Position numbers and translations under genes: made by a program. From contig CM049314.1 in assembly GCA_026874595.1 (NCBI GenBank), positions 37,305,229 through 37,369,228 of the forward strand: a stretch of 64,000 bases of DNA. Reading direction: 5' to 3'. Below are positions 21,001 to 24,000 of the stretch, piece by piece. How positions within the stretch are numbered: the stretch's first letter is position 1; each line of letters begins with the position of its first letter. The stretch comes from Sipunculus nudus (lineage: Eukaryota > Annelida > Sipuncula > Golfingiida > Sipunculidae). A model generated the notes under the pieces. The model made no database searches. It saw nothing but the letters and a program-made list of their open reading frames with translations, and was not told the DNA's origin.

Positions 21001-24000
21001 ATCTAATTAAACAACCTGTTGTAATCCATCACTGCCTAATGGATTTATAAAAAAAGGTTTAGACTGACCCTGCTATCATTAACACTGAATTAAATGAAGA
21101 TATTCAGACACTCAAATGCATTTCATTGATTTTGACTGTACTTTTCATAAGTTGACAATACATTAAAATAATAGTACATATCAAATGTAGCAGTGAGTAT
21201 CCACCAGCCAAACATTAACTGTAAATGGTTTATAGTTTACAACAAAGTGACAATGACTGGCATATTAAAATTATTTGTGTATTTTGGTACATGCAAGTCT
21301 GAAGGACATACATTATCTTTAATATTTTCTTTTCAGATAATCGATCTTGAGAGAGAGATAGCACTCAAAGACAAAGGTAAGAGGCAGGCATGTGTCTATG
21401 AATTTGTGTGATATCTTTCAATTTTTTTGGCCCCCCTGAGAACAGGGGACATTGATTTGGGTTTGTCCGTCCGTCTGTCTGTCCAACGGACGGGTTTATC
21501 GTTTCCGTTTGATAACTCTCCTAAATAGTATCCTATTTCATTCAAATTTTGGTCAGTGATTTCTCTCATGCATACCTTGGTTGAGACTGGTTTTGGAGTG
21601 TCTGTCTGAAAAATTATTATCACCAGCTCCAAAACAAACAAAAAAATTCCCTTTTTTTCATCTTCAGGGGACAATTAAAACTTAAACATATTGAGAAGGC
21701 AAATGGGGGGCAACAAGAGGCGGAAGTTGAGGACATAAATTCCACAAAGTATTCTTGCCCTTAGTGGAAGCTGAGAAAGATTGTTTTGTTAAATTTTCAA
21801 TTTAGAAGCCTGCCCTCTACTGAATTATGAAGGTCTGTTGCAGTCTCTGGTATGTGTCTTATTTCAATGAAGAAAATGCCTGATATTGCTTCACTTGACC
21901 CACACATAGCAGACACCCTTACGTGCAATATACAAGCTCATGTAAAAGGTCTGTTACATCCACTATCAGTAATCTAAGTAAGGGTATTACTACTTATGGG
22001 CGTGATGTTGATGAAATGTCAGTTTGATGAAAACGATCCAGTGATCTATCCTTGCAGTCCCATAATTGATTGCATATTTTTGAACATAACTTGGGCTTTG
22101 TAATGAGGAAATGTGTGCTTTTATATAAATTTTGCAAGCAAACTAACAAAAAGTCTGTGTTTACTAAAAAACCTGCATAACAGTTGAGATGATGTACTGG
22201 TCTATATGTGGTCAAAAATCTATTTTCTATATATATATATATATATATATATATATATATATATATATATATATATATATATATATATATATATATATAT
22301 ATATATATATATATATATATATATATATATATATATATATATATATAAATGTAACCGGACACACAAAAGCATTCCTACTGGCTTTGCTAGTGAAGCTTGC
22401 TTTATTGGCGAAGCGGTAGAACGTCTGACTTGTGTGTCACAGGTTACGGGTTCGAACCCATATTCGGGCCTGGTTTCTATTTTCACCTGTTACAAATGGT
22501 GGCAGCGGTGGGATCTGGGAAGTTGGTGTCGTGGCATGATGCCCCATCCAGTTCACAGGTGTGACCCCCGCGTAGATTCCCACGTTCTGAGGACAGAACG
22601 TTCTCGGAGAGGGGGTGAATATAACCAGACACACAAAAGCGTTCCTACTGGCTTTGCTAGTGAAGCTTGCTTTATTGGCGAAGCGGTAGAACCTGGTTTC
22701 TATTTTCACCCGTTACATACATATATATATATATATATTACTCTACAGTCATGTGGCCCATTGTTCACCATTTGTGTCATTGTTGAGGTCCCTAGCTAGT
22801 CTTATGAAATAATTTATTTTTTCACAGAACTGTCTGCTCAGAGACAGGAGCTAGAACAGCTGAGACAGCAGGTGGATGCTGACCTGAGGAACCAAGAGGA
22901 GCTGAAGGAGCTTCACAGTAAACTAGAGGACCTTCAGAAAAGGTAAAATAATTCAAAAGCTGCACATTACATGACCACCAGTCCCTCTAGAGGCTCATAC
23001 TCTTTTGTATTTAATCCCAAGCACATGATCTCAAAAATAATTTCATTTTAGTGACTGGTTAAAGATTTCAAACCAAGAAGAGCATAGCATACTTAAAACT
23101 AGATAAATTTCTCAATATTTTTATTTAGTTAACTTGTGTTTGAAAAGTTAAGGTTTTGAGATTATCTTCGATTTCTTATTTACAAAAATAGTTCCCGGTT
23201 ATAAGATATTTACACATTTTTAGCTCAGCTGACTGTAAGTCATCTGAGCTATAACAATCACCCTTTGTCTGTCTGTCTGTCTGTCCGTCCGTCCGTTAAC
23301 CTGGCACAAATTGTAACTGCTGGACCTAGAAACTTGTAACTTGACATTTTGAGAGGTCCATGAAAAATCTCATTGGAAACCAGAAATGAGGTCTCTGTTA
23401 CCCATATTCTTCGAGCTATGGGGCCCAAAAGTACCCCCCAGAATTGTCAAAAATTTCATACAAAAACTTCAATATCTCATTAACTACATCACTGATGGTC
23501 ATGATTTTTGGCATACATATTAATTATGAGATGTTCCATTAGTTCCTGCAGACTGGTGGTCACACCTGTATTTTTCGATTTTTTACAAATTTTTTTCTCT
23601 ATTTTTGAGACCATTAAAAATGTGAACATCTGTTAACAAGGCACAAATCGTAAAGACTGGACTTAGAATCTTCATTCTTTACACACTGAGAGACCTATGA
23701 AAAGTCTCCATGGAAACCAAAAATTAGGTCTCTGTTACCCATATCCTTCCAGCTATGGAGCCCCAAAGTACCCCCCAGAATAGTAAAAAAATTCATACAA
23801 AAACTTCAGTATCTCATTAACTACATCACTGATGGTCATGATTTTTGGCATACATATTGATCATGAGATGTTTCATCAGTTTTTGCAGACTGGTGGCGCC
23901 ACCTGTATTTTTTTATTCTTAACCAATTGTTTTCTCTGTTTTTGAGACCTTTAAAAATGTGGACATCTGTTAACAGGGCACAAATCGTCAAGACTGGACC

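Follow-up and report, generated by a model that had tools for sequence, protein, structure and literature searches.

The element and its insertion site

The window (the whole stretch of DNA that was analyzed, 64 kb) contains at 22350–22717 a 368-bp element made up of a 145-bp 5′ LTR, a 125-bp internal region, and a 98-bp 3′ LTR, all embedded in a TA microsatellite. By blastn, no second copy of the element was detected in the 64-kb window. The features of the element and of its borders are the following.

22228–22347, no strand assigned: (TA)60 microsatellite hosting the element (TRF, 60.0 copies, 100%)
22346–22349, no strand assigned: possible left target-site copy TAAA, or mutated LTR start if the LTR begins with TGAA (read directly)
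22350–22494, plus strand: 5′ LTR, 145 bp, TGTAAC...GTTACA, with A and B boxes inside (blastn, alignment)
22406–22416, plus strand: A box TGGCGAAGCGG (pattern scan)
22449–22459, plus strand: B box GGTTCGAACCC (pattern scan)
22480–22483, plus strand: run of four T (T4), candidate Pol III terminator within the 5′ LTR (sequence reading)
22495–22619, plus strand: internal region, 125 bp (alignment)
22497–22514, plus strand: candidate primer-binding site (PBS) TGGTGGCAGCGGTGGGAT, 2 nt inside the left LTR; the same 18-mer plus C occurs on contigs L050 and L053
22606–22615, plus strand: polypurine tract GGAGAGGGGG, followed by TGAA and then by the right LTR
22620–22717, plus strand: 3′ LTR, 98 bp, lacking the 47-nt B-box block, A box kept, start TATAAC (blastn, alignment)
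22703–22706, plus strand: T4 run in the 3′ LTR (sequence reading)
22718–22721, no strand assigned: possible right target-site copy TACA (read directly)

An initial annotation, made from the letters alone, had described direct repeats with TGTAAC/GTTACA-type ends at this place. Comparison of the window with itself (blastn) bore this out, with one match of 75 nt (22348–22422 and 22618–22692; 96% identity, E 3.9e-30) continued by a second of 26 nt (22469–22494 and 22692–22717; 96%). The limits of the LTRs, 22350–22494 and 22620–22717, were set by the inverted TGTAAC/GTTACA end words, the right LTR beginning with TATAAC where the left one has TGTAAC. The right LTR may alternatively start with TGAA (22616; the left counterpart is TAAA at 22346), in which case it would be 102 bp long. 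The PBS-like sequence and the purine tract noticed in the annotation were both recovered: the 18-mer TGGTGGCAGCGGTGGGAT begins 2 nt after the left LTR, and GGAGAGGGGG ends 4 nt before the TATAAC of the right one. Upstream of the purine tract, the internal region also contains a perfect 8-bp inverted repeat (22582–22589/22594–22601); the fold of this region was no better than that of shuffled sequences (z = −0.77; 40 of 200 shuffles were at least as good).

When the LTRs were aligned, 94 of 98 positions were identical, and all four differences were transitions. Because of these four differences, the insertion does not appear to be very recent. The alignment contains one gap of 47 nt, which can be placed at 22422–22468 or at 22423–22469 of the left LTR and includes the B box; the right repeat has therefore indeed lost exactly the block which it was said to have lost. 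During LTR reverse transcription both LTRs are built from one RNA and thus come out alike, which is why the deletion is best read as a later event, either following insertion or at the final step of copying. This copy would probably be a poor template, its right-hand RNA repeat being shortened, with the left promoter still in place. One could instead regard the loss of the B box as a feature of the family, such that only the promoter of the left LTR is active. The deletion is seen in this one copy and would prevent transcription from starting in the right LTR; yet a difference between LTRs made from one RNA should not be inherited, and the alignment leaves just two placements for the gap, which is what a random deletion would give. 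Loss as a family trait is thus hardly credible, and a deletion peculiar to this copy is assumed in what follows.

On its right side, the element is adjoined by a shorter TA run. The candidate target-site copies, TAAA and TACA, agree in three of four bases at best (or TATA and TACA, if read differently), within the TA microsatellite, and as the insertion sits in a TA repeat, a target duplication is not readable from the flanks. Downstream, on the same strand as the element, follows an exon-like stretch with AG/GT borders (22828–22942), coiled-coil-like to the eye and without a match in Pfam. The element is, thus, most likely intronic, in a gene of the same orientation. Three of the four other frames taken as exons of this gene, plus one more, gave no Pfam match either; Pfam matches, to RING-finger and alpha/beta hydrolase families, were obtained with two frames unrelated to it.

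The statement of the initial annotation that the element contains no ORF does not hold to the letter, as a plus-strand frame of 203 amino acids (22188–22799) is open across the whole element. It stands with regard to coding content: a Pfam search of the frame at E up to 0.1 returned nothing, the TA repeat accounts for 40 of its codons, and the frame is taken to be open by chance. Judged on this frame, the element appears to encode no mobilization proteins.

Several other repeats were noticed in the window. Tandem units of ∼337 bp, following a snap-back sequence AGCTCAGCTGA...TCATCTGAGCT, occupy 23222–24954, in a style that presumably resembles that of bivalve genomes; the repeats around 23222–23300 might thus hint at a mollusc, a brachiopod, or another lophotrochozoan as host. 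A tandem array with a unit of ∼181 bp (self-matches 92–97% identical) lies at 51273–52644, and pieces of 0.5–1.2 kb repeated in inverted orientation with ∼89.5% identity at 31033–34051 and 61387–64000 perhaps belong to an unnamed mobile element.

A presumed tRNA-type promoter in the left LTR

The A and B boxes of the left LTR start 43 bases apart (22406 and 22449), as the initial annotation had it. They were located with loose patterns, composed after the element had been seen, that allow the B box 36–62 bases after the A box; scanning both strands with these patterns yielded two A/B pairs in the window (at 22406 and 36743), compared with an average of 0.005 pairs in 200 dinucleotide-shuffled versions of it. 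The A box contains TRGC and YGG, its fifth base being G instead of Y, and the B box contains GGTTC. Both boxes are present in the left LTR and the A box only in the right one.

The surrounding sequence does not resemble a tRNA as a whole. ARAGORN called no tRNA at the element, and a search of 22330–22740 against Rfam (E up to 10) returned no tRNA among five matches, the best of which (wcaG, 19.4 bits vs a gathering score of 42) was put down to chance. Folding of the tRNA-like stretch (22394–22470) gave no cloverleaf (−25.2 kcal mol−1 for the native sequence). The boxes are tRNA-like and the whole stretch is not, so that a tRNA derivation would rest on the boxes and their spacing.

These negative results bear on whether the element might be an ordinary Pol II-type TRIM, like biv-TRIM, in which the box-like words of the LTR are fortuitous and play no role. 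Neither ARAGORN nor Rfam (E up to 10) gave a tRNA match, by eye two of the five pairs of a T stem could form around the B box, and bivalve TRIMs for which no Pol III promoter is noted do exist, according to the available portion of their description (PMC6934838). Against this, an A/B pair at tRNA-type spacing is expected far less than once per shuffled window (see above), and in the Helenus elements (discussed below) the boxes are conserved even though a functional tRNA is not predicted for many families (PMC10886601, as far as its accessible text goes). Fortuitous boxes are, therefore, considered improbable, and a presumed Pol III promoter in the left LTR is the preferred reading.

A transcript from such a promoter would require a terminator. 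The only sense-strand T4 runs of the element are those at 22480–22483 and 22703–22706, which occupy the homologous place in each LTR; none lies between them. As ∼0.4 T4 runs are expected by chance in the internal region (our own estimate), this placement suits a Pol III stop but argues for it weakly. One T4 run per LTR and none between is a testable detail of the question whether elements of this kind are transcribed by Pol III.

The second A/B pair of the window (TGGCATAATGG ... GGTTCGAGTCC, also 43 bases apart) forms the tRNA-like head of a sequence at 36725–36810 that is probably a tRNA-derived SINE or a tRNA relic; no direct repeats of 16 nt or more were found around it in 36200–37400. SINE-like sequences thus probably occur in this genome, which raises the question whether the element at 22350–22717 is itself a SINE of tRNA origin that underwent a duplication, by chance or in tandem. 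The arrangement expected in that case, and named in the initial annotation as contrary to its own reading, is a single tRNA head without an LTR pair. It was looked for in this copy, and two LTR-type repeats were found instead, with inverted TGTAAC/GTTACA ends and with PBS and purine tract enclosed in the right order. Moreover, the repeats start 56 bases upstream of the A box, which is further than a tRNA-derived head would be expected to extend. A SINE origin is accordingly very unlikely, and the element is treated as an LTR element in the following.

Elsewhere in the window, a tRNA-Ser (GGA) was predicted on the minus strand within 44026–44190 (53.7 bits), its 5′ end overlapping one arm of a self-complementary stretch (44083–44190). 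It is perhaps a mobile or snap-back copy of a tRNA and not a plain tRNA gene.

Contigs sharing the candidate primer-binding site

The PBS TGGTGGCAGCGGTGGGAT would presumably pair with the 3′ terminus of an animal tRNA-Leu, CCA included. Among the genome contigs (genome_contigs), the 19-mer TGGTGGCAGCGGTGGGATC, which comprises the PBS, occurred at five loci, two of which (L050 and L053) also carry retrotransposon genes. In L050 (1–7177, titled as a Planctomycetes metagenome-assembled genome, MAG), one frame matched Integrase_H2C2 (E 5.3e-21), rve (1.5e-15), and Integrase_p58_C (2.4e-09) in Pfam. Past the integrase, and on the same strand, TGTAAC was found at 5625, GTTACA at 6343–6348, and the 19-mer at 6356. 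These words delimit a candidate LTR of 724 bp (5625–6348), directly preceded by GGTGGGGGAAG and followed after 7 nt by the PBS; being read from a single copy, it is a candidate only. Two further frames, of 329 and 735 amino acids and without a Pfam match, lie between the integrase and the candidate LTR. In L053 (2794–5571, titled as a Gammaproteobacteria MAG), gag and protease frames were seen, with matches to Retrotrans_gag, zf-CCHC, and an aspartyl protease downstream of the 19-mer. For L050, 4 of the 13 listed frames were analyzed with Pfam, and for L053, 2 of the 4; no reverse transcriptase domain was detected in these. Neither contig contains an internal direct repeat of 40 nt or more. 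Despite their titles, both contigs are probably of eukaryotic origin and ended up among bacterial bins.

The remaining three loci (L051, L052, and L054) were excluded because they look bacterial by GC content and by 80 bases of context on each side, and their 19-mers are probably chance matches. Because three of five loci look bacterial, the 19-mer alone is not specific. In the other two it appears to occupy a PBS-like place, in L050 together with the LTR end words of the element.

L050 and the element have in common the identical PBS 19-mer, candidate LTR ends TGTAAC/GTTACA, and a G-rich tract before the LTR. Unlike the element, L050 codes for integrase and other proteins, its candidate LTR is 724 bp long, and LTR and PBS are separated by 7 nt instead of 2 nt. 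Among the matches listed by blastn, a 20-nt stretch comprising the PBS was the only sequence common to both. Shared PBS and LTR ends would fit mobilization of the element by a Gypsy-type helper, where "Gypsy-type" reflects our reading of the domain names. The contig thereby supplies a concrete helper hypothesis.

Viral contigs were searched in a similar way. The presumed 3′ end of tRNA-Leu retrieved one locus, in whose bases 1–400 ARAGORN found no tRNA, and TTACANN followed by the PBS retrieved none. The only viral contig containing the 18-mer (L055) was rejected, as it does not have the look of an LTR border over 80 bases on each side. The 49 viral loci with the 16-mer TTGGCGAAGCGGTAGA were judged to be chance matches or unrelated coding DNA: within 95 bases of the 16-mer (the contig of L046 ends before that distance), the B-box pattern was found at none of them and GGTTC at two (L010 and L047). 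Searching phage records by distant blastn (E up to 1) gave no match.

Proposed cycle

What is observed is the anatomy of the element and contigs that share its PBS and carry retrotransposon genes; the steps below are what this anatomy and the general LTR pathway would suggest. Driven by the A and B boxes, Pol III would start ∼12–18 bases before the A box (at about 22388–22394), would have to read past the first T4 run (22480–22483), and would terminate at its counterpart in the 3′ LTR (22703–22706). The resulting RNA would bear the same stretch at both ends. The reverse transcriptase of a putative Ty3/Gypsy-type helper could then prime at the PBS with what may be tRNA-Leu, the purine tract would prime the second strand, and the integrase of the helper would insert the product.

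Comparison with known systems

In the initial annotation, the sequence was interpreted as a miniature LTR element that has a tRNA-type promoter in its LTR and may be the animal equivalent of Cassandra. Its anatomy speaks for this, but the kind is already published as Helenus (PMC10886601). Cassandra of plants is a TRIM whose LTR holds a Pol III promoter, as the LTR of the element presumably does; it differs in that its 5S RNA sequence has boxes A and C and its PBS reads TGGTATCAGAGC, where the element has tRNA-type A and B boxes and another PBS (PMC7215508, as excerpted). No 5S-derived sequence was found among the five Rfam matches (22330–22740, E up to 10). Ajax of nemerteans is likewise a TRIM with a small-RNA promoter in its LTR, and is primed by tRNA-Leu, the presumed primer of the element; its promoter is derived from 5S RNA (PMC10886601, available text). 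The biv-TRIM of bivalves is similarly short and has inverted repeats in its internal domain, but its repeats measure 202–218 bp, its internal domain 77–80 bp, no unambiguous PBS is reported, and the accessible part of the description does not mention Pol III boxes (PMC6934838). The Steamer-like element was dismissed as a match, as its PBS is given as one for tRNA-Asn (PMC11046912, as excerpted).

Helenus (TRIMp3) was defined by Kojima in 2024 as TRIMs carrying tRNA-derived sequence in their LTRs, with hosts among fungi, one plant, and six animal phyla; the accessible parts of that work (PMC10886601), on which this and the next paragraph draw, count 51 Helenus families from pteriomorph bivalves and three or more from the brachiopod Lingula anatina. 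Sequences were clustered there at a threshold of 75% identity over 75% of the length. Lengths range from 311 to 1263 bp. Most A boxes read TRGCY, sequence is conserved around both boxes, and many families are predicted to be without a working tRNA, whereas seven bivalve families could encode tRNA-Thr. Animal Helenus generate 4-bp target duplications and have PBS regions that resemble only Gypsy elements; the link to Gypsy is drawn from this similarity, with the length of the duplication discussed alongside. The primers given for bivalve families are tRNA-Lys, -His, -Ile, -Pro, -Glu, or -Ser, and tRNA-Leu is given for those of hymenopterans and vertebrates. Whether Helenus is transcribed by Pol III is treated there as an open question (PMC10886601).

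The element agrees with these descriptions in being a short non-autonomous LTR element with A and B boxes in its LTR, a candidate PBS, a polypurine tract (ending 4 nt before the right LTR), and a suggested Gypsy-type partner, as in animals. Its two LTRs and short internal region (145 + 125 + 98 = 368 bp) fall within the published length range. It departs from them in three respects: tRNA-Leu, its presumed primer, is absent from the list given for bivalve families; its A box reads TGGCG, with G as the fifth base, compared with TRGCY in most Helenus; and its right LTR lacks the B-box block (PMC10886601). Either the host belongs to another lineage, or a further primer type exists, or the assignment of tRNA-Leu is wrong.

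The inverted TGTAAC/GTTACA ends and the PBS and purine tract in the order of an LTR element, together with the A/B pair, lead us to conclude that the element is very probably one copy of a Helenus-type LTR retrotransposon, non-autonomous and somewhat decayed, with a presumed Pol III promoter, inserted in (TA)n and probably intronic. The assignment is a comparison of anatomy with the published description. More tentatively, and with doubt prevailing, it might represent a Helenus family outside the 2024 list, primed by tRNA-Leu, perhaps lophotrochozoan, with LTR ends and PBS in common with TGTAAC-type Gypsy elements. If true, such a family would extend the known primer set of Helenus, and perhaps its host range. 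The element looks like a known kind, described in 2024, to which it adds another example: otherwise ordinary, it was noticed independently, from nothing more than the raw sequence, and its kind has had a name only since then.
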